Source of the DNA: Natronomonas gomsonensis | Lineage (GTDB): Archaea > Halobacteriota > Halobacteria > Halobacteriales > Haloarculaceae | NCBI RefSeq assembly: GCF_024300825.1 | Contig: NZ_CP101323.1 | Coordinates: forward strand, 2,356,001-2,420,000 | Direction: 5' to 3' | DNA length: 64,000 bases | Part shown: one piece after another, positions 8,304-22,218 of the stretch | Layout of the letters: the number at the start of each line of letters is the position of its first letter | Position numbering within the stretch: position 1 is the stretch's first letter | The notes under the pieces: generated by a model | What the model was told of the DNA's origin: nothing | Databases searched by the model: none | Seen by the model: the letters and a program-made list of their open reading frames with translations, nothing else | Translations under genes and position numbers: made by a program

Positions 8304-8337
8304 TAAACTCCGGTTGTGCTAATACAATTGTGTTTGA
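8304..8337. promoter_or_regulatory. Shared operator-like region between cobN and the chelatase ATPase gene
   Basis: TAAA-CTCCGG-TTGT (8304-8317) and ACAA-TTGTGT-TTGA (8324-8337) start 20 bases apart. The region serves both directions: GTATTAG on the minus strand (8319-8325) lies 24-30 bases before cobN, a plausible TATA element, and the second copy overlaps the likely GTG start of the + strand gene. One bound protein could control both chelatase parts. Inferred. Confidence 0.6.
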
Positions 8338-13115: not shown

Positions 13116-13412
13116 CTAGAGGCCGATTTCCAGTTCCATCTCGTCGTAGTCGACGACCGGCCGGTGTGCGCGTCCGTCCCGCTCGAACTCGACGAGTCCC
13201 TCGCCGCCGAGCGTCCAGAGGTTGTCGTGGACCTGCCGAACGTCTCGGTCGACCAGTCGAGCGGTCTCGCGGATACTCGACGGTTCCTCGCGGGCGATGG
13301 TTCGAAGCAGTTCGATGGTCGTCGGTCGACAGACCAACGATGCCTCCTCGGACGTCAGGGTTCGCGTTTTGGTGCCGTCGGCGCCGGAGAGTCGAAGCGT
13401 AATCTCGCTCAT
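13116..13412 (-). CDS. Small winged-helix DNA-binding protein
   Basis: A 98-residue protein with a helix-turn-helix core: CRPTTIELLRTIAREEPSS, then IRETARLVDRDVRQVHDNL as the recognition region, and an EGLVEFERDG wing. It resembles the haloarchaeal HVO_A0114-type putative DNA-binding family. The start at 13412 (MSEITLRLSG) is supported by a TATA-like box 24-29 bases upstream; a longer ATG frame has no such support. It has its own promoter beside the cobalamin operon, so it could regulate that operon or merely be a neighbour. Confidence 0.8.
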   Translation of the reverse strand: MSEITLRLSGADGTKTRTLTSEEASLVCRPTTIELLRTIAREEPSSIRETARLVDRDVRQVHDNLWTLGGEGLVEFERDGRAHRPVVDYDEMELEIGL

Positions 13413-13435
13413 GCTGCGACGTGGACGCGGGGCCA

Positions 13436-13441
13436 CTATAA
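13436..13441 (-). promoter_or_regulatory. TATA-like box of the winged-helix gene
   Basis: TTATAG on the minus strand lies 24-29 bases upstream of the ATG at 13412, the distance expected for a leaderless haloarchaeal transcript. It separates this gene from the operon ending at 13462. Confidence 0.55.
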
Positions 13442-13461
13442 CGGCGTGGCTTGGGACAACA

Positions 13462-14649
13462 CTACGGAAGTTCGAGCGCGTAGCGACCCCGGCGTTTCCC
13501 GTCGTCGTGGTACCGAACCGGCTCCTCGATGAGCGCACGGCTGTCACCTGCGATGGCGGCGGCCGTCACGACGCCGTCGGTCGTCGCCGAGACCCGGGGG
13601 CCGTCCCTCACGTCGAACACCCGCCAGCCGTGTACCGAGGGGTCCCGCTCGCGGAAATGCTGTGCGACCGGCACGAGCAGGCGGCTACCGTCCGCCGCGA
13701 TGCCGTGGGAGAACCCGCCGACTTCCTCGCGCCACCGTTCGGTCCCCGACAGCGAGTAGCCGAACGCGGTCTGTTCGTTGGGGTGACGCTCGTCGGTCTC
13801 CCTGCCCTCTTCGGGGAAGGTGTTGCCGGTCAGGAAGACGGCGCCGTCGTCGCTCGCGTGAACATGGTTGGGGTAGGTGTACACCTCGTCGCCACTCGAC
13901 CGCTGTGTGCCGAGGTCGGCGCTCCACACCGCGTCGCCGTCGACGATTCGGTAGCCGCGGTAGTCGGCGTGGCTCGTGACGAAGAGGCTCCCGTCGGCGG
14001 CCGCCACGTCTCCGATTCGGCGCGTCGCCGTCCGGTCGGTGTCCCAAACCCATCGTTCGGAACCGCCGTTGTCGAGCACAACGAGTCCGTCGTCGTGGTC
14101 GCCGGGACAGCGGTTGTACGCCACCGCGACGCCACCGTTGAACGCCGCGAGGGAAATCGGCGAGGCGTCGGCGTCGTAGCGCCAGCGAACGGTTCCGTCC
14201 GAGGCGAGGGCGTACACCGAACTCTCGAAGTGACGCCCTCCGTCCCGCCGTTCGTAGCGCCGTATGGCGACGTAGGCGGTGTCGGCGTCCGTGACCGCGT
14301 CGACGACCATCGGCAGGAAAAACCGCGTCTCCTTGGTGGGAGTGCCGATGGCGTCGGCGGCGTCGTGTCGCCACCGCTCGGTGCCGTCTTCGAGCAGTCG
14401 AACGGCGCCTCGCTTCGACCGCTCGCCGACCAACACGCCCGCCCCGAACGGGACGAGCGTGATGGCGCTGCCCTCGCCGTCGACCGACCAACGCTCGGCG
14501 CCGGCGCGGTCGAAGGCACGGACGGTGCCGTCGGCGAGACCGACGACCGGCCCCGAGCCGGTCAGCGTGACGCCCGAACGGCGCCCGGCCTGCCGGGAGC
14601 CACAGGAATCGATGTCGCCGAGCGGGATTCGGGTCGCCGTCTCACTCAT
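13462..14649 (-). CDS. PQQ-like beta-propeller repeat protein at the end of the cobalamin operon
   Basis: A 395-residue protein of repeated blades (GTVRAFDRAGAERWSVDG, GAVRLLEDGTERWRHDA, YALASDGTVRWRYDA, LVVLDNGGSERWVWD, SLSGTERWREEVGG), the pattern of PQQ/BamB-like propellers. No Tat or Sec signal, lipobox or membrane span is visible, so it is predicted cytoplasmic, unlike most such propellers. Its start overlaps the stop of the DUF3209 gene by eight bases, which places it as the last gene of the cbiT operon. Function unknown; a scaffold for pathway enzymes is one guess. Confidence 0.75.
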   Translation of the reverse strand: MSETATRIPLGDIDSCGSRQAGRRSGVTLTGSGPVVGLADGTVRAFDRAGAERWSVDGEGSAITLVPFGAGVLVGERSKRGAVRLLEDGTERWRHDAADAIGTPTKETRFFLPMVVDAVTDADTAYVAIRRYERRDGGRHFESSVYALASDGTVRWRYDADASPISLAAFNGGVAVAYNRCPGDHDDGLVVLDNGGSERWVWDTDRTATRRIGDVAAADGSLFVTSHADYRGYRIVDGDAVWSADLGTQRSSGDEVYTYPNHVHASDDGAVFLTGNTFPEEGRETDERHPNEQTAFGYSLSGTERWREEVGGFSHGIAADGSRLLVPVAQHFRERDPSVHGWRVFDVRDGPRVSATTDGVVTAAAIAGDSRALIEEPVRYHDDGKRRGRYALELP

Positions 14650-15013
14650 CGACCGGGAACGCCTCGTGGAGCGTGTGGTGGCTGTCGCCGAGGTCCTCGA
14701 GGAGGCTCTCGCCGTGATTCCGGACGCGGTCGAGAGCGGTTTCGGCGTCCCGGACCGCGACGAGACGGCCGCGGAGGTAGTCGTATGAGGGGTCATCGCT
14801 TTGTGTCGCGGCGACCTCCTCTTCGAGTTCGACCAACGCGGTATCGAGGTGCCGCGCGCAGTCGGCGAGGGTGTCCGCGTCGGCGAGCGCCGCGATGTGG
14901 GGGTCGGGCTCTTCGCCCAACTCCTGACGGGCGTGTTTTCGTGCGGCGTCGTCGTCGACGCCGAGGCTGTTCATCAGGCCGAGTCGAAGCGCTTCGATTT
15001 CGTGACAGGTCAT
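14642..15013 (-). CDS. DUF3209 family protein, possible metal-handling partner of CbiX
   Basis: A 123-residue, mostly helical acidic protein starting MTCHEIEALRLGLMN and ending with a His cluster GDSHHTLHEAF. It matches from memory the haloarchaeal DUF3209 family, which travels with cbiX. Cys3, His4 and the C-terminal His residues could bind a metal. It begins two bases after cbiX and overlaps the propeller gene by eight. No enzymatic motif is visible; a cobalt chaperone role is inference from context and residue content. Confidence 0.78.
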   Translation of the reverse strand: MTCHEIEALRLGLMNSLGVDDDAARKHARQELGEEPDPHIAALADADTLADCARHLDTALVELEEEVAATQSDDPSYDYLRGRLVAVRDAETALDRVRNHGESLLEDLGDSHHTLHEAFPVDE

Positions 15014-15015
15014 GA

Positions 15016-16203
15016 TTAGAGGGTCTGTGAGACCAATTGGGAGACGATGCGGTCGCGGTCGAGCGAGGAGGCGATGCGGTCGGCGTCGTCCGGGGACACC
15101 TCGCCGTACCAGACACCGTCGGGGTAGACGGCGACGTTCGGGCCGTCGCCACACTGGCCGAGACACGACGAACGCGTAATTCGGGCGTCGACGCCGCACT
15201 CGCGGACGGCCTGCCGGAGTCGCTCCAGCACCGTCGCCGCACCGTCGCTCGCACAGGTTCGGTTCGTACAGACTGAGACGTGTTTTTCGGGGGCGTCGTG
15301 GACGTGGGGCTCGTCGTCGACTTGGGAGCGGTCGGCGTGGGCGGCCCGATGGGTCATCGCTCGCAGCATCGCACGCGCACCACCCGAATCGCCCTCGAAA
15401 CCGTCCATCTCGACTTTGTACTTGCAGGTGTCACACGACATCGACACGTCGCCGGCACGGGCCTCCTCGAATCGGTCGGCCAGCACCTCCAGCAGTCGGT
15501 CGTCGGTGCCAAGAGGTTCGCCACACCCGGCGTCGACGTAGGGGTAGTCGGCGTCGAACTCGGCTGCACCCTCGCGGATGCGTTCCGTGAGCACGCCGTC
15601 GCCGAGCATGTACGGCAGGACGACGACGGCGTCCGGGCGACGCTTGGCGACGGTGTGCAGCGTCTCGTCCAACAGCGGTTCGGTGACGCCGATGAACGAC
15701 GCCTCGACGCCGGCGAACTCACGGCCCTCGTACAGCAGGCGGGCGAGTTTGTGTACGTCGGCGTTGGAGTCGGGGTCGGAAGATCCTCGGGCACACACCA
15801 CGACGATGACGTCGTCGTCTTCGCGAGCGACGCCCAATTCGTCTTCGACGGCGGCCGCGCGGTCGTCGAGCAACTCCACGATGGCCGGGTGGACGCCGAG
15901 GTGTCTTCCGTTGTGGAGTGAGACATCGTACTCCGTTCGGGCTTCGTTGACGACGAGCGGCACGTCGGCCTTGACGTGGCTCGCGGCGAACAACGACAGC
16001 GGGATGACGGTCACGTCCGTCGCCGTGGGTGCGAGCGACCCGACGGCCTCGGCGATGGTCGGGTCAGCCAACTCGATGAACCCGGCGTCGACCGGCAGCC
16101 CGAGCCTCCCTTCGAGGTTCGCTGCGAGGGTTCGGACCTGCTCGTTGGATTTCTCGCGGCGCGACCCGTGGCCCGCCAGCACGACGGCTTCACCGTCCAA
16201 CAT
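15016..16203 (-). CDS. cbiX: Sirohydrochlorin cobaltochelatase CbiX fused to a [2Fe-2S] domain
   Basis: Inserts cobalt into sirohydrochlorin, the early-insertion step. Residues 1-120 form an active-looking CbiX half: AGHGSRR (His12) and AASHVKADVP (His76). Residues 128-250 form a second half in which these become CARGSSD (137-143) and GDGVLTE (201-207), so only one active site is expected. A CDTCK motif (Cys257, Cys260), a His-rich DEPHVHDAPEKH and a thioredoxin-like [2Fe-2S] domain (Cys312, Cys317, Cys347, Cys351) follow. The ATG at 16203 overlaps the upstream stop by one base. 395 residues. Confidence 0.9.
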   Translation of the reverse strand: MLDGEAVVLAGHGSRREKSNEQVRTLAANLEGRLGLPVDAGFIELADPTIAEAVGSLAPTATDVTVIPLSLFAASHVKADVPLVVNEARTEYDVSLHNGRHLGVHPAIVELLDDRAAAVEDELGVAREDDDVIVVVCARGSSDPDSNADVHKLARLLYEGREFAGVEASFIGVTEPLLDETLHTVAKRRPDAVVVLPYMLGDGVLTERIREGAAEFDADYPYVDAGCGEPLGTDDRLLEVLADRFEEARAGDVSMSCDTCKYKVEMDGFEGDSGGARAMLRAMTHRAAHADRSQVDDEPHVHDAPEKHVSVCTNRTCASDGAATVLERLRQAVRECGVDARITRSSCLGQCGDGPNVAVYPDGVWYGEVSPDDADRIASSLDRDRIVSQLVSQTL

Positions 16204-16871
16204 CAGTACCCCTCCGCTTGCTCGACGCTCCGGCGAAGTTTCCGTCGCCGACTCGGCGCGAACAGCCCGGAGTTCTCGCTGCCTTCGTACACCCACTCGC
16301 CGAACGCCGGTGCGGCGGCGTCATCGAGACCGAACCAGTAGCCGCCCGACGACGTTTCCGAGATGGCGTCGTGTGGCGCCTCGACGCTCGCGTCTTCGAG
16401 TAGCGTCCCGACCTGTTCGAGCAGTTTCTGCTCGTCGTGGACGAACGAGATGCCGACGGTTCCGTCAGAGGACTTGAAACAGACGGTTCCACACCCTTCC
16501 AGCAGGCCGCGGAGTAGTTGGCGGTCGAATTCTGCGAGTGCGTCGAGGCGATAGCCGCCCGAGTCGCCCTCGAAGGGGAGTCCGAGCGCGGCGGCCGCGC
16601 GGTCGCCGACGCCCCCGAGCGCCTGCACCGTGTAGGTGTCCGTCGACCGGGTAATCGAGGTGTCGTGGGCGTACTCGCGGTCGACGATGCGGTGGTTGAC
16701 GCCCTCGGCGCCCGCGATGGCGGCGAGGCGTTCGGCGGCCGTCTCGTCGTTCGTCCAGACGGTCACGCCATCGTTCGTCACCTCGCCGTCGCCGATGACG
16801 CGGCCCCAGAAGTACGCCGTCTCGGGGTGGGCATCCAGCAGGTTCCGCGGGGCGCCGGTCTCGACGCTCAC
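16203..16871 (-). CDS. LAGLIDADG-like protein embedded in the cobalamin operon
   Basis: A 222-residue protein probably annotated elsewhere only as cobalamin biosynthesis protein. It has two motifs in homing-endonuclease positions: FWGRVIGDG at 21-29 and LRGLLEGCG at 120-128, about 100 residues apart as in single-chain LAGLIDADG enzymes. Supporting features are ALGLPFEG before motif 2 and a C-terminal EWVYEG ... RRRKLRR. Motif 1 keeps the catalytic acid (Asp28); motif 2 has Cys127 in its place, so DNA cleavage is unlikely. GTG start; GTGA overlap with the ferredoxin gene and TGATG with cbiX. A DNA-binding or tetrapyrrole role is inference. Confidence 0.7.
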   Translation of the reverse strand: MSVETGAPRNLLDAHPETAYFWGRVIGDGEVTNDGVTVWTNDETAAERLAAIAGAEGVNHRIVDREYAHDTSITRSTDTYTVQALGGVGDRAAAALGLPFEGDSGGYRLDALAEFDRQLLRGLLEGCGTVCFKSSDGTVGISFVHDEQKLLEQVGTLLEDASVEAPHDAISETSSGGYWFGLDDAAAPAFGEWVYEGSENSGLFAPSRRRKLRRSVEQAEGY

Positions 16872-17101
16872 GGCTCCACCTCCTCCACCGAAATCGCGTC
16901 CAGTGGGCAGGCGGCAGCGGCCTGCTCGGCGTCCTCGCGGTTGCCGTCGTCGAACGTTGCGGTGAGTCGACCTTCCTCACGGTCGCCACCGGGCAGCGTC
17001 ACGAGGCCGTCCTCAGCCTCAGCGAAGCGTCCGTCGCGGACGAGACAGGCGAAGACGCCGTCACACGCCTCCAGGTCGACTGAAACGGTGTATTCGGTCA
17101 T
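16868..17101 (-). CDS. Small single-cluster ferredoxin with only three cysteines
   Basis: A 77-residue acidic ferredoxin. Cluster ligands visible are Cys13 and Cys19 in EACDGVFACL and Cys65 in AACPLDAI. The middle ligand position of the usual C-x2-C-x2-C motif is Val16, and there is no other Cys, so a [3Fe-4S] cluster is predicted. It lies two bases after cbiH2 and overlaps the next gene (GTGA), suggesting electron supply to a pathway step such as ring contraction by a CbiH protein or cobalt reduction; the partner is not evident. A longer upstream start is less likely. Confidence 0.85.
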   Translation of the reverse strand: MTEYTVSVDLEACDGVFACLVRDGRFAEAEDGLVTLPGGDREEGRLTATFDDGNREDAEQAAAACPLDAISVEEVEP

Positions 17102-17103
17102 CG

Positions 17104-18069
17104 TCAGTAGTCGTACTTCGTCTCGTAACCGCGCGGGGTGACCATCCGGCCGTCCCACACGTACGTTTCTTCGTTGCCGACGACGATGGTCGTCGTCATG
17201 TCGACGATGTCCTCCTCGCCGAGCTCCGGGAGTGTTCCGAGGTCCGTGATTCGGGTCGCCTCGTCCTCTCGGGAGGCACCGTGGACGATGCCGACCGGCG
17301 TCTCGGGGTCGCGGTGCTCCAGCAGGATTTCACAGCAGCGCTGGAAGTTCTCCCGGCGCTTGCGGCTCCAGGGGTTGTAGATGGCGATGGTAAAGCCCTC
17401 GCCCGCGACGGCGTGCAGGCGCGATTCGATGTCCTCCATCGGCGTCAGGTGGTCCGACAGCGACACCGAGACGGTGTCGTTGACCAGCGGGGCGCCGAGG
17501 CGGGCCCCACAGGACTGTGCGGCGGGGACGCCCGGCACCACCTCGAAGTCGACCGCCGAGGCGGTGCCGCCCTTCGATTCCAGTATCTCCAGTGCCAACC
17601 CCGCGAGCGCGTACACGTTCGGGTCGCCCGACCCGACGATGGCCACGTCGTTGCCCGCCAGCGCGCGGTCGATGGCCTCCTCGGTTCGGGAGACCTCCCC
17701 GCACATTGGCGTCGAGTAGATGTCGTCGGCGTCGTCGGTGATGTCGTCGGGCAGGAGGTCGATGTAGGTCGTGTAGCCGACGATGTGTTCAGCGTCGGCC
17801 AGCGCTGCCTTCGCGCGGGCGGTCATCCCCTCCGGTTCGCCGGGGCCGAGTCCGACAGCGAGGAGGCGCCCGGGGTCGCCCTCGAAGTCCTCGACGGTGG
17901 CGCCGACCTCCTTCTCGCCGTCAGAGGCGGATGCACCGCAGTTCGAGGCTGACGAAGAATCGCTGGCGGCGCCACAGTCACTCTCGCTGGACGTGTCAGT
18001 GCTGGATGTCCCGCACTTCGATTCCGTACTCGATGCTGCTGCCGTATCCGTAGTGTCGTCGGTGCTCAT
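17104..18069 (-). CDS. cbiH: Cobalt-precorrin-3 (C17)-methyltransferase homologue CbiH2 with Cys-rich N-terminus
   Basis: Tetrapyrrole methylase of the CbiH/CobJ group: AVGLGPGEPEGMTARA near 71-86, VGSGDPNVYALAG, VVPGVPAAQS, LSDHLTPMEDIE and IYNPWSRKRREN. This enzyme class methylates C17 and contracts the ring. Residues 1-50 are an unusual Ser/Thr/Asp-rich tail with Cys-Gly at 19-20, 32-33 and 44-45, spaced 12-13 residues. It begins two bases after cbiH1. The start at 18069 (MSTDDTTD) avoids a long overlap with cbiH1. 321 residues. Which of the two CbiH copies does which step is unknown. Confidence 0.88.
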   Translation of the reverse strand: MSTDDTTDTAAASSTESKCGTSSTDTSSESDCGAASDSSSASNCGASASDGEKEVGATVEDFEGDPGRLLAVGLGPGEPEGMTARAKAALADAEHIVGYTTYIDLLPDDITDDADDIYSTPMCGEVSRTEEAIDRALAGNDVAIVGSGDPNVYALAGLALEILESKGGTASAVDFEVVPGVPAAQSCGARLGAPLVNDTVSVSLSDHLTPMEDIESRLHAVAGEGFTIAIYNPWSRKRRENFQRCCEILLEHRDPETPVGIVHGASREDEATRITDLGTLPELGEEDIVDMTTTIVVGNEETYVWDGRMVTPRGYETKYDY

Positions 18070-18071
18070 TG

Positions 18072-18932
18072 TCAGAAGTCCTCCACCTCGCGGCCGCCGC
18101 GCGGCGTCACGAGATACTCGCCGTGGTCGTTGCGCCACTCGTGGGATTCGTGGGTGCCGATGAGAATCGAGGTGCCCATTCCGCCGACCTTCTCGTCGAA
18201 TTGGGTGGCCTCGCCGAGCGTCGTGATGGTGTGGGTCTCGTCGTCGAGGTTGCGTCCGGCCTCGCCGCGGCCGGCGTCGTTGAAGATGGCGACGGGCACG
18301 TCGTCGGCCCGCTGTTCGCGGACGACCTCGATGGCCCGCTCGTAGTCGCGCCAGCAGTTGTACAGCACGATGACGAACCCCGAAATCGCGGCCGCGCGCA
18401 ACTTCTCTGCGATTTCGTCCCAGCCACGCCACTTATCGGACAGCGAGACGGTGCAGAAATCGTTGGAGAGGGGCGCACCGAGGTTCGCCGCACCGCCGAG
18501 CGCCGCCGTCACGCCGGGGACGATTTCGATTGGAACGTCGTACGCTTCCTCCTCTTCGGCCATCAGGAAGACCAAATCGGACTTCCCGTAGACGTTCGGG
18601 TCGCCGCCGGAGACGTGGGCTACGTCCTGTCCGTCTCGGACGCGTTCGAAGGCCTCTTGGGTCAACTCGACCTGTTGGCCCATCGACGACCGGACGATTT
18701 CCTGTTCGTCGCCGGTTGGAGTTGTCGTGGCCCCGCCATCGGTCGCGGTCTCCGGCGGAATCGTGCCGTCCTGTCGAAGGAACTCCTGATAGAGGTTCGA
18801 GGCGATGACGCAGTCGGCGGTTCGAATCACGTCGCGGGCCCGCTGTGTCATCGCATGCGGCAGCCCCGGACCGATGCCGACGACGTACAGCGTGCCGTAG
18901 TCGTCGGTGTCCGCGTTCGTTTCTCCCGACAT
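18072..18932 (-). CDS. cbiH: Cobalt-precorrin-3 (C17)-methyltransferase homologue CbiH1
   Basis: Second CbiH/CobJ-type SAM methylase: VVGIGPGLPHAMTQRA near 17-32, VSGGDPNVYGKSDLV, IVPGVTAALGG, SLSDKWRGWDEI and VLYNCWRDYERA. An acidic insertion rich in Thr/Gly (TATDGGATTTPTG) lies after the first third. 286 residues from MSGETNAD; the start overlaps the cbiG stop by one base (TGATG). Tandem cbiH genes are a feature of haloarchaeal B12 clusters as remembered; division of labour is not known. Confidence 0.87.
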   Translation of the reverse strand: MSGETNADTDDYGTLYVVGIGPGLPHAMTQRARDVIRTADCVIASNLYQEFLRQDGTIPPETATDGGATTTPTGDEQEIVRSSMGQQVELTQEAFERVRDGQDVAHVSGGDPNVYGKSDLVFLMAEEEEAYDVPIEIVPGVTAALGGAANLGAPLSNDFCTVSLSDKWRGWDEIAEKLRAAAISGFVIVLYNCWRDYERAIEVVREQRADDVPVAIFNDAGRGEAGRNLDDETHTITTLGEATQFDEKVGGMGTSILIGTHESHEWRNDHGEYLVTPRGGREVEDF

Positions 18933-19909
18933 CACCGCCCCACCGCCACGGTCACGGCCTCGTCGAATCGCTCTTTTTTCCGTGCCAGTTCGTGCTCGCG
19001 GCCGCCCGCAATCGCCGACGCCTCGGCGATGCCGGGCCAGCCGATGAGTTCCTTCGCCCGCGAGGGGGTCGGTCCCTCGTGGTCGAGCAAAGTGTCCTTC
19101 TCGAAGAGGACGACGCCGGCGCCTATCTCTTGGGCGGCTTCGTAGAGCCCTTCCTCGCCCTCCTTTCGGGTGGCGGTGGCGACGAACTCCACGTCCGAGA
19201 AGTCGAGGTCGAGGTCGGCCAGCGCGGCCTCCCACGCGTCCAGCACCTGTGATTTATCGACGCCATCGACGGTTCCCGTCCCCAACACGACGCCGTCGTC
19301 GTTGCGTTTCATCACGGTCACGTCGTCCCCCACGAGGACGGCCCGGGGGCCGTCGAGGCGTTCGACGGATTCGATGTCGTCGTTCAACACGGCGAGGTTC
19401 GTCGCCACCGTCGAATCGCCATTGACGACGTGTGCATCGAGGGCTTTGGCCTTCGACTCGATGCCCTGCTTGCCCGCCGCTTCCGAGGCGGTCGTCATCG
19501 CCGGAACGGCGCCCATCTTCGAGAGGTCGTGGGCGACCTGATTCGCGCCGTGGTGGCCGCCCGTTATCGGGATGGCCCACGTCAACTCCTCGTCGACGAC
19601 GACGAGTGCGGGGTCGTCCCACTTGTCGTCGAGCAGGTGCGCCGTCTTCCGCATCGCGATGCCGGAGGCCATCAGGCCGACGAAGCAGTCGTACTCGCCC
19701 CAGTGCTCTTCGAACACCTCGCCGTGGTACTCGATGATGTCGATGGCGTCGTAGTCGTCTGTCAGTTCCGCCTTGATGTCCTCCGCGACCGGCAGTTTCC
19801 GCTCGAAACTGACGATGGCGATTTCCTCTGCGACTTCGCCATCCGAGTCGGGCGTCGCGCAGTGACCGCCGCTGTCGTCGCTCGTGTCGGTGTCGTTGTC
19901 AGTGCTCAT
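18932..19909 (-). CDS. cbiG: Cobalt-precorrin-5A hydrolase CbiG
   Basis: Opens the delta-lactone of cobalt-precorrin-5A and releases acetaldehyde, the signature step of the anaerobic route. The protein has the CbiG N-terminal and central parts: VGLMASGIAMRKTAHLL, VVVDEELTWAIPITGGHHGA, ANQVAHDL, then a C-terminal domain with FVATATRKEGEEGL and TPSRAKELIGWPGIAEASA. An acidic lead with a GGHC segment precedes the domain. 325 residues; start chosen at MSTDNDTD, one base after the cbiF gene ends. Confidence 0.9.
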   Translation of the reverse strand: MSTDNDTDTSDDSGGHCATPDSDGEVAEEIAIVSFERKLPVAEDIKAELTDDYDAIDIIEYHGEVFEEHWGEYDCFVGLMASGIAMRKTAHLLDDKWDDPALVVVDEELTWAIPITGGHHGANQVAHDLSKMGAVPAMTTASEAAGKQGIESKAKALDAHVVNGDSTVATNLAVLNDDIESVERLDGPRAVLVGDDVTVMKRNDDGVVLGTGTVDGVDKSQVLDAWEAALADLDLDFSDVEFVATATRKEGEEGLYEAAQEIGAGVVLFEKDTLLDHEGPTPSRAKELIGWPGIAEASAIAGGREHELARKKERFDEAVTVAVGR

Positions 19910-19910
19910 G

Positions 19911-20798
19911 TCAGTCGTCACTCTCCGCGGTGTCGTTCGCGTCGTTTTCGCTCCGATTCGCCCAATCACCGTACAGGTACGACCGCTCGTAGCCGGCACC
20001 CGCGGCCGCCTCGCCGACCAGCACCATCGCCGAGGCGCGGTAGCCCGCCTCGGCCAGTTTCTCGCCGATGTCGGCGACAGTGCCTTCGATTACGTCCTCG
20101 TCGGGCCAGGAGGCGTGATACACTACCGTGACGGGCGTTTCGGGGTCGACGCCTTCCGCCAGCAGGCGGTCCATCGTATCGCCGACGGCGTGGGTTCCGA
20201 GGTAGATACAGGTCGTCACGTCGCCCATTTCGACGAAATCCGCGATGTGGTCGTCTTCGGGGTCCAGTGTCTTCCCCTGCGGCCGGGTGAAGGCGACGTG
20301 GTTGGCCGTCTCGTTGAGCGTCAACTGCGTCCGAAGGGTTGCACTCGCCGCGAACGCCGAGGTGACGCCCGGAACGAGGTAGGTGGGAACGCCCTCGTGT
20401 TCGAGTGCGTCCATCTGCTCTAAGGCGGCGCCGTAAATCGCGGGGTCCCCCGAGTGGAGACGGACGACTTCGCGTCCGTCCTCGTGGGCGTCCCGCATGA
20501 GGGGAATCAGCTCTTCGAGGTCCTTGCCGACGCTGTTGACCAACTCGGCGTGGTCGCAGTACGCTTCCAGCAGTTCGCTGTTGACCAACGAGCCGGCGTG
20601 AACGACGAGGTCGGCGGCTTCCAGCGCCTCCCTGCCGGCGACGGTCAAAAGTCGAGGGTCGCCCGGTCCGGCGCCGACGAAGGGGATGCCCTCCTGTTCG
20701 TCGCCCGCGGTGTGGTCGTAGACGCGCTCGTCGCGTTCGTGGGCGTGTTTCTCGCGTTCGGCGTCGATGGCGCTCTGGGGGTCGGTATTCTCAGTCAT
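19911..20798 (-). CDS. cbiF: Cobalt-precorrin-4 (C11)-methyltransferase CbiF
   Basis: SAM-dependent C11 methylation. Methylase motifs are FVGAGPGDPRLLTVAG (about 40-55), the CbiF/CobM-typical VHAGSLVNSELL, LHSGDPAIYGA and LVPGVTSAFAAS, and YHASWPDEDV. The N-terminal lead is rich in His and charged residues (EKHAHERDER). 295 residues; its start overlaps the end of cbiL by eight bases, and cbiG begins one base after its stop. Confidence 0.92.
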   Translation of the reverse strand: MTENTDPQSAIDAEREKHAHERDERVYDHTAGDEQEGIPFVGAGPGDPRLLTVAGREALEAADLVVHAGSLVNSELLEAYCDHAELVNSVGKDLEELIPLMRDAHEDGREVVRLHSGDPAIYGAALEQMDALEHEGVPTYLVPGVTSAFAASATLRTQLTLNETANHVAFTRPQGKTLDPEDDHIADFVEMGDVTTCIYLGTHAVGDTMDRLLAEGVDPETPVTVVYHASWPDEDVIEGTVADIGEKLAEAGYRASAMVLVGEAAAGAGYERSYLYGDWANRSENDANDTAESDD

Positions 20799-21555
20799 CG
20801 TACACCTCGTCACCTGCGGCCTCAGCAGTCGCGATTTCTTCTCGGTGGACACCGCCGTCGGCCGTCGTTTCCCGACCGAACGCGGCGGTCGCCGGCTCCT
20901 CGCCGACGCCCGGCTTCTCGGCGTAAGCGACGGTGTAGTAGTCCCGTTCGGCCAGTTGGTCGGGGTCGTCGGTCACTATCGACTCGTGGCCGTCCATGAA
21001 CAGCCGCCGGCCGTAGGTCACGTCGTAGCCGGAATCGCGGAGTTTCTCGTGGGTCGCGGGCACGTCTGTCACCTTGAACAACACGAGTCGGTCGGGACCG
21101 ACGGGGGCGGCACCGTTTGCGGCCTCCCGCAACACGAGGTCCGACCCGGCCGTGATTTCGATGTCGAGTGCGGTCGCGAACGCCGTCACCGTCGAGACGC
21201 CCGGGACCACTTCGAGGTCGACGTCGGGGTGGAACCGCTCTAAGGTTCGGCGCAGGTGGCCGAACGTCGAGTAGACGTTGGGGTCGCCCAGCGTGACGAA
21301 CGCCGCGGTCCCGTCCTCGGCGCGTGGTGCGACCTCCTCGGCGGCGGCCTTCCAGGCCCGCCGGAGTTCGTCCTCATCGCGTGTCATTGGGAAATCGAGG
21401 TCGCCCAGTTGGGATTCGGCGACGTACTCGCATGCGACGTTGCGGGAGAGCCGACCGGGCGTGTACACCACGTCGGCCGACTCTAGCAGTTCCCGACCGC
21501 GGACCGTAATCAGTCCGGCGTCGCCGGGTCCCAACCCGATGCCGTACAGCGTCAT
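20791..21555 (-). CDS. cbiL: Cobalt-precorrin-2 (C20)-methyltransferase CbiL
   Basis: First SAM methylation committed to corrin formation (C20 of precorrin-2 or its cobalt form). The 254-residue methylase shows GIGLGPGDAGLITVRG at 5-20, FVTLGDPNVYSTF, VVPGVSTVTAFA and a LVLFKVTDVP stretch. Its ATG overlaps the cbiT stop by four bases (ATGA). Second gene of the operon. Confidence 0.92.
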   Translation of the reverse strand: MTLYGIGLGPGDAGLITVRGRELLESADVVYTPGRLSRNVACEYVAESQLGDLDFPMTRDEDELRRAWKAAAEEVAPRAEDGTAAFVTLGDPNVYSTFGHLRRTLERFHPDVDLEVVPGVSTVTAFATALDIEITAGSDLVLREAANGAAPVGPDRLVLFKVTDVPATHEKLRDSGYDVTYGRRLFMDGHESIVTDDPDQLAERDYYTVAYAEKPGVGEEPATAAFGRETTADGGVHREEIATAEAAGDEVYDD

Positions 21556-22091
21556 GTCGCCCCTCCGACGATGACGTACACCGGGTTGTTCGAGTCGAAA
21601 CTCGTCGCACCGGCGAGTTCGTAGCCCGTCGACACCTGTAGTTGGACGACCTCCTCGAAGAGGTTCCGCTCGCGGAACGCCCGGACGGCGTCGCCGGCGA
21701 TTTCGAGCCGCGAGACGTTCATCACGACCCGGTCGATACCCGTCTCGGCGGCGAAATCGAGGACTTCCTCGTAGTTCCGCGACCCACCTAAAAACAGGGC
21801 GTCGGCGTCCTCCGGCAACCCCTCGGGGGCCTCCCCTTCGAGTAGTTCGACGCCCTCGATGTCGTTGGCCGTGAGGTTCTTCTCGGTCGTCTCCAGCCGT
21901 TTCGGTTTCCGCTCGATTGCGGTCACTCGGCCGGCCTGACGGGCAGCCTCGACGGTCACCGCGCCCGTACAGGAGCCGACTTCGATGAAGTGGTCGGTCG
22001 GACCCAACTCCAGTTTCCCGAGGGTCACCGACCGGACCTCCGGCTTCGTCGGCCCCGCCTTCGCGTCGTGTGGAAGCGCTACGCGTGCCAT
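21552..22091 (-). CDS. cbiT: Cobalt-precorrin-6B (C15)-methyltransferase (decarboxylating) CbiT
   Basis: Methylates C15 and decarboxylates the C12 acetate. It is a 179-residue Rossmann methyltransferase with the SAM-binding EVGSCTGAVTVEAARQ and DALFLGGSRNYEEVLDF. First gene of the eleven-gene operon reaching 13462. Two operator-like repeats lie within 41 bases upstream, and the nearer one ends six bases before the ATG. Confidence 0.92.
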   Translation of the reverse strand: MARVALPHDAKAGPTKPEVRSVTLGKLELGPTDHFIEVGSCTGAVTVEAARQAGRVTAIERKPKRLETTEKNLTANDIEGVELLEGEAPEGLPEDADALFLGGSRNYEEVLDFAAETGIDRVVMNVSRLEIAGDAVRAFRERNLFEEVVQLQVSTGYELAGATSFDSNNPVYVIVGGAT

Positions 22092-22097
22092 AGGACT

Positions 22098-22132
22098 ACA
22101 ACTGCAGGCGCAGGTAAAACAATTATGCTTGT
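22098..22132. promoter_or_regulatory. Operator-like motif upstream of the cbiT operon
   Basis: Read toward cbiT, ACAA-GCATAA-TTGT (22132-22119) is a perfect ACAA/TTGT inverted repeat, and 21 bases on is GCGC-CTGCAG-TTGT (22111-22098), a half-conserved copy. It is the best single match to the island-wide consensus and overlaps the expected TATA region. Function inferred. Confidence 0.6.
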
Positions 22133-22218
22133 TTTAGATAAATCCTACTTTCCATTCGGGCTGGTAGGGTTGTTCCTCCGACACAGCACATTTGAGGGTT
22201 CCCCACGCAATCGGCGGT

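Follow-up and report, generated by a model that had tools for sequence, protein, structure and literature searches.

The cobalamin operon of Natronomonas gomsonensis encodes, directly upstream of the cobaltochelatase gene cbiX, a protein with the predicted fold of a LAGLIDADG homing endonuclease. In haloarchaea, this gene has become a fixed part of the operon for cobalt-early B12 synthesis, and the residues required for nuclease activity have decayed. Judged by its sequence and those of its orthologues, the product is a domesticated LAGLIDADG protein and very probably no nuclease. With a likelihood that we put slightly short of even, it provides CbiX with cobalt as a metallochaperone or buffer, replacing a histidine-rich tail; the ligand, the partner, and the direction of evolution are the inferred parts of this reading.

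In the cobalt-early B12 pathway of haloarchaea, two steps are still unfilled and four cluster genes have no assigned function (PMC8305020). One of these four genes now gains a fold and a candidate role at cobalt insertion, while it can be removed as a general answer to the CbiD/CbiJ gap. The protein adds an archaeal member to the very few domesticated LAGLIDADG proteins known, possibly the first of them that works off nucleic acid. A role in feeding cobalt to a chelatase is not known for this family.

A fixed gene of the cobalamin operon

The window, i.e., the whole stretch of 64,000 nucleotides that was analysed, contains the following features around the gene:

8321..8337, minus strand: second, weaker operator copy upstream of cobN, TCAAACACAATTGTATT (11 bits compared to a shuffled maximum of 7.8)
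13462..14650, minus strand: PQQ-type beta-propeller of the same accessory module, start approximate (named from the annotation of loci L140 and L141)
14642..15013, minus strand: DUF3209 protein of the same accessory module
15016..16203, minus strand: cbiX-type cobaltochelatase, with a thioredoxin-like 2Fe-2S domain at its C-terminus but without a His-rich tail
16203..16871, minus strand: LAGLIDADG-fold protein, degenerate at the catalytic positions (from Pfam, orthologues and an AlphaFold2 model)
16868..17101, minus strand: small single-cluster ferredoxin (Fer4_15), directly upstream, overlap GTGA
17104..18069, minus strand: cbiH2 (precorrin-3B C17-methyltransferase type; annotated as cobJ at the orthologous loci, L140 and L141)
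18072..22091, minus strand: cbiH1, cbiG, cbiF, cbiL and cbiT, the rest of the operon with cbiT first
22113..22138, minus strand: conserved operator TCTAAAACAAGCATAATTGTTTTACC, a palindrome (ACAA-N6-TTGT) located 47 bp upstream of the start codon of cbiT

The initial annotation had placed the reading frame (16203-16871) and its overlaps with both neighbours correctly. On the minus strand, 222 codons run from a GTG start at 16871, which shares GTGA with the ferredoxin stop (16868), to a stop codon (16205-16203) that shares TGATG with the cbiX ATG at 16203. It had also regarded the gene as an integral part of the operon and not as an inserted mobile element, which agrees with our comparative data: each of the 58 archive loci has the order CbiH2, ferredoxin, LAGLIDADG gene, CbiX, and the gene co-occurs with the cbi cluster. 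Among 293 sampled Halobacteriales genomes, 149 carry the gene and 155 carry CbiG, which is present in every one of the 149; none has the gene without CbiG, and six (G044, G046, G068, G130, G273, and G312) have CbiG without the gene. No homologue was seen outside the Halobacteriales in a sample of 295 genomes of the phylum. With its fixed position and its co-occurrence with cbi genes, the gene does not behave like a homing endonuclease that is mobile or sporadic as part of an intron, an intein, or a free insert. Where the cbi cluster is split (G085), it stays with cbiX; this genome (L150, L151) holds the cluster in two pieces and has a second, divergent CbiG.

The LAGLIDADG protein, the ferredoxin, the 2Fe-2S tail of CbiX, the DUF3209 protein, and the beta-propeller may together form a module. 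A small HVO_A0114-family protein near the cluster (13116-13547, minus strand) did not recur as a constant neighbour.

NCBI lists the orthologues as "hypothetical protein" or "cobalamin biosynthesis protein". The gene lies between the cbiH2-ferredoxin pair and cbiX, in the same cluster place as HVO_B0055 and its orthologues (cbiH2, ferredoxin, gene, cbiX), and by gene order, not by sequence, it is probably the HVO_B0055 orthologue. HVO_B0055 is among the four cluster genes without an assigned function, and the study describing them makes no mention of LAGLIDADG (PMC8305020). Long reading frames at the gene in G182 and G135 were considered as gene fusions and rejected, as they reflect an upstream out-of-frame stretch and a frameshift.

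A complete LAGLIDADG fold related to archaeal single-chain endonucleases

The initial annotation had proposed a LAGLIDADG fold from the motifs FWGRVIGDG (residues 21-29) and LRGLLEGCG (120-128), both of which are found at these positions. The Pfam family LAGLIDADG_3 matches the protein with E=3.9e-6 and 27.5 bits, above the curated cut-off of 22.5, and matches 34 of 47 orthologues at E<=1. An AlphaFold2 model built without templates from the 47 orthologues (pLDDT 89.8, pTM 0.88) contains the two repeats of the LAGLIDADG superfamily in a complete saddle fold, the absence of which would have spoken against the proposal, and all 222 residues are taken up by this fold and one extra C-terminal helix. 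By these three lines of evidence, the likeness is beyond chance. NCBIfam has no model for the protein, and searching PDB sequences with the family profile gave no LAGLIDADG match; the relation is thus evident via Pfam and fold only and not via profile comparison to PDB sequences.

When the model was compared to known structures using Foldseek and VIA-align, it matched I-Tsp061I (Z 15.7), I-DmoI (15.5), and PI-PfuI (15.1), i.e., archaeal single-chain proteins that are alike over the whole fold, have a chain of similar length, and likewise combine both repeats in it. The protein is therefore of the single-chain LAGLIDADG type and a relative of the endonucleases found in archaeal inteins and introns but differs from them in that its catalytic acids are lost or unstable and that it is a fixed operon gene outside any intron or intein. 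At the sequence level, the RNA-polymerase intein endonuclease of G045 is 29% identical to it over 150 residues.

The model also matches WhiA (8dy7, Z 14.6), in line with the initial annotation, which had named this protein as a precedent. WhiA (DUF199) likewise contains a domesticated LAGLIDADG domain that is not used for cutting, and the fold match places our protein with LAGLIDADG domains of this kind. However, the protein described here is archaeal and encoded inside a biosynthetic operon, a Pfam search found no C-terminal helix-turn-helix (HTH) in it, and neither the protein nor its orthologues matched the WhiA sequence family in Pfam. Unlike for WhiA, our analysis found no sign of operator binding. 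The HO endonuclease of yeast is another domesticated LAGLIDADG protein (PMC7282813) but, unlike the one described here, is still an endonuclease.

Decayed catalytic positions around a conserved centre

The motif register assigns the first catalytic acid to position 28 and the second to position 127. Across the alignment of 47 orthologues, position 28 is D in 34, S in four, G in four, A in three, and N in two, while position 127 is C in 45 and A or S in one each, so that the acids closing the two motifs of a LAGLIDADG homing endonuclease are not both in place. The claim that motif 1 keeps its catalytic acid thus holds for this copy (D28) but not for the family, whereas the suggestion that Cys127 makes cutting unlikely is strengthened by a motif-2 acid that is always replaced by Cys, Ala, or Ser. 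Poor conservation of the two motifs among orthologues had been named as a reason to abandon the original proposal; the motif glycines and E125 are kept, but the catalytic acids are not.

Other positions are strictly conserved: W22, G23, G29, R65, A68, H69, R75, R121, E125, G128, C131, F132, G140, S142, and Y195 are invariant in all 47 sequences. A68, H69, R121, E125, C131, and S142 are kept even in a homologue of G045 that is only 32% identical and not linked to a cbi cluster.

These residues can be viewed in the register of I-CreI with its catalytic D20 and its contact boxes (PMC6035192). The sheet segments, i.e., the strands of the saddle, have a net charge that is neutral to acidic, and only the C-terminal helix, with conserved R208-K211, is basic (mean net charge +3.9) in an otherwise acidic protein. 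We take the tips of the beta1-beta2 hairpins to face the outer base pairs of a DNA site and the beta3-beta4 turn to face the central ones. At the presumed outer contact tips (32-35 and 134-138), residues vary and are often acidic, while hardly any variation is seen at the presumed centre (R65, H69, D70, R75, C131, K133, and S142). Variable, often acidic tips, a nearly invariant centre, and a basic charge confined to the C-terminal helix are more consistent with a compact ligand than with an extended DNA site.

Exchange of the gene with a histidine-rich CbiX tail

The strongest hint to function that we found comes from the six cbi genomes lacking the gene, all of which encode a CbiX with a His-rich tail (L142-L147). 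Five of them (G044, G046, G068, G273, and G312; L142-L146) share a minimal cluster CbiT-L-F-G-H1-H2-CbiX with chlID and cobN alongside but without ferredoxin, LAGLIDADG gene, DUF3209, and propeller, and their CbiX has a long His-rich C-terminal tail and no 2Fe-2S motif. The sixth, G130, has lost the LAGLIDADG gene and keeps the ferredoxin, DUF3209, the propeller, and a 2Fe-2S-tailed CbiX; a second CbiX with a His-rich tail (L147:12703-13644) sits in the exact place of the missing gene. L145, L146, and this extra CbiX reach nine to 10 histidines per 25 residues, and a reading by eye shows the L142, L143, and L144 tails to be plainly rich in histidine as well. By comparison, no His-rich tail (at most six histidines per 25 residues) is present in 60 cluster CbiX proteins from loci of genomes with the LAGLIDADG gene, a set that comprises cluster-encoded CbiX only. 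The exchange represents about two independent transitions.

A strict 2Fe-2S motif is present in 34 of these 60 tails. The shown carrier tails without it are 139-141 residues long and have no His-rich run, which suggests that the pattern is too strict rather than that the domain is absent. A mirror-tree analysis of the LAGLIDADG protein and CbiX detected no co-evolution beyond the shared tree (residual r = -0.23).

A tentative role in cobalt supply

Tails rich in histidine are commonly regarded as metal stores. The mutual exclusion suggests the same role, cobalt supply at CbiX, for the tail and the LAGLIDADG protein, although the former is an unrelated low-complexity extension and the latter a separate folded protein. 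The unlinked homologue in G045, seen in this one genome, lies between two cation-efflux genes (L165:1445-4454, minus strand), and a rhodanese-like reading frame is found directly behind it. Taken together, the constant CbiX neighbour, the linkage in G085, the cation-efflux context in G045, and the exchange with the His tail point to a cobalt-handling accessory.

We propose that the central floor of the old saddle would be the binding site, with H69, C131, often C127, and R65, D70, R75, and K133, and that it might hold cobalt or a carboxylate-rich tetrapyrrole. The LAGLIDADG protein would take over the job that the His-rich CbiX tail does in relatives without the gene. H69, C127, and C131 should lie near each other according to the predicted fold; since position 127 can be C, S, or A, C127 would not be an obligatory ligand. 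The full form of this proposal is that the LAGLIDADG fold has left nucleic acid altogether, that its old catalytic centre has become a site for cobalt or a corrinoid precursor, and that it serves CbiX as a metallochaperone or accessory subunit in place of the His tail; we hold it tentatively, with the chances somewhat against it. To our knowledge, nucleic acid is the target of all LAGLIDADG proteins, a role that the conserved basic C-terminal helix would suit; both count against a function in cobalt handling.

The operator and a possible regulatory function

The initial annotation had suggested that the protein might read the operator of its own operon, which it located at 22098-22132; the element lies instead at 22113-22138. 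Its 26-bp form ccTAatACAAcCAaAATTGTTTTatg is found 47-50 bp upstream of cbiT in genomes carrying the gene (45 loci, 41.7 bits, best shuffled 7.8 bits), and a genome-wide search with the pattern returned the cbiT and cobN sites, with the remaining matches at about the level of the reversed control. Thanks to this conserved element, the regulation of B12 synthesis in haloarchaea can be tested directly as well.

A WhiA-like regulator that binds DNA with its saddle and basic C-terminal helix to regulate transcription of the cbi genes, and that perhaps senses cobalt or corrinoid via the replacements at the former catalytic metal site, would fit the WhiA precedent and structural match as well as the charge of this helix. 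It is the main rival of the cobalt-handling accessory, but we consider it clearly less likely. A version of the operator precedes cbiT in all six cbi genomes without the gene (12.5 to 26.7 bits), including the deepest branches of a midpoint-rooted tree; its reader must therefore be present without the LAGLIDADG protein, and the operator seems to have existed before the gene arrived. The variable, often acidic outer tips and the lack of an HTH family match also disfavour the protein as operator reader. On the other hand, G130, which lost the gene, has TTGA in place of the TTGT half of the operator. Furthermore, a second cob/cbi activator besides TrmB, the motif of which (TACT-N7-8-GAGTA) differs from ACAA-N6-TTGT, has been inferred in Halobacterium salinarum, but the candidates for it were chosen on other grounds (PMC3794607). 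Finally, a regulator would leave the exchange with His-tailed CbiX unexplained.

Other alternatives to a cobalt-handling accessory

LAGLIDADG maturases exist, and the bI3 maturase (2ab5) aligns to our model with Z 12.9, so that an RNA-binding, maturase-like protein acting on cbi mRNA could also make use of the basic C-terminal helix. However, no intron was seen at the locus and the net charge of the saddle strands is neutral to acidic, which makes this function improbable.

We regard it as more improbable still that the protein is an enzyme filling a pathway gap, i.e., the CbiD C1-methyltransferase or the CbiJ reductase. Neither is found in any of the 293 sampled Halobacteriales genomes while the remaining cluster is present, so both gaps are order-wide, and the unassigned cluster genes have been called "obvious candidates" (PMC8305020). 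The five minimal clusters without the LAGLIDADG gene, ferredoxin, DUF3209, and propeller also lack CbiD and CbiJ, though, so the gene is not their general substitute and the general solution must lie elsewhere. Pfam searches with the protein gave no match to PF01888 (CbiD) or PF02571 (CbiJ), and we know of no SAM or nucleotide site in the LAGLIDADG fold. The earlier idea of a new pathway factor may still hold in the form of a cobalt-handling accessory.

An active homing endonuclease or recently inserted mobile gene, for which the fold and D28 of this copy could be cited, is very unlikely given that the motif-2 acid is missing in all aligned orthologues, that D28 is lost in 13 of the 47, and that synteny across many genera contradicts mobility of this gene, which is single-copy in its genome.

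Order of gain and loss

In a tree of five cluster proteins (midpoint-rooted, i.e., with an assumed root), the five minimal genomes branch first, followed by G045 and then the rest, while G130 is nested among carriers, which marks its lack of the LAGLIDADG gene as a secondary loss. With this root, the accessory genes seem to have joined a minimal cluster at a later stage. A haem-copper oxidase is absent from three of the five minimal genomes, whereas the other two, which belong to one genus, have one, as does every carrier checked; the accessory module may therefore go with aerobic life.
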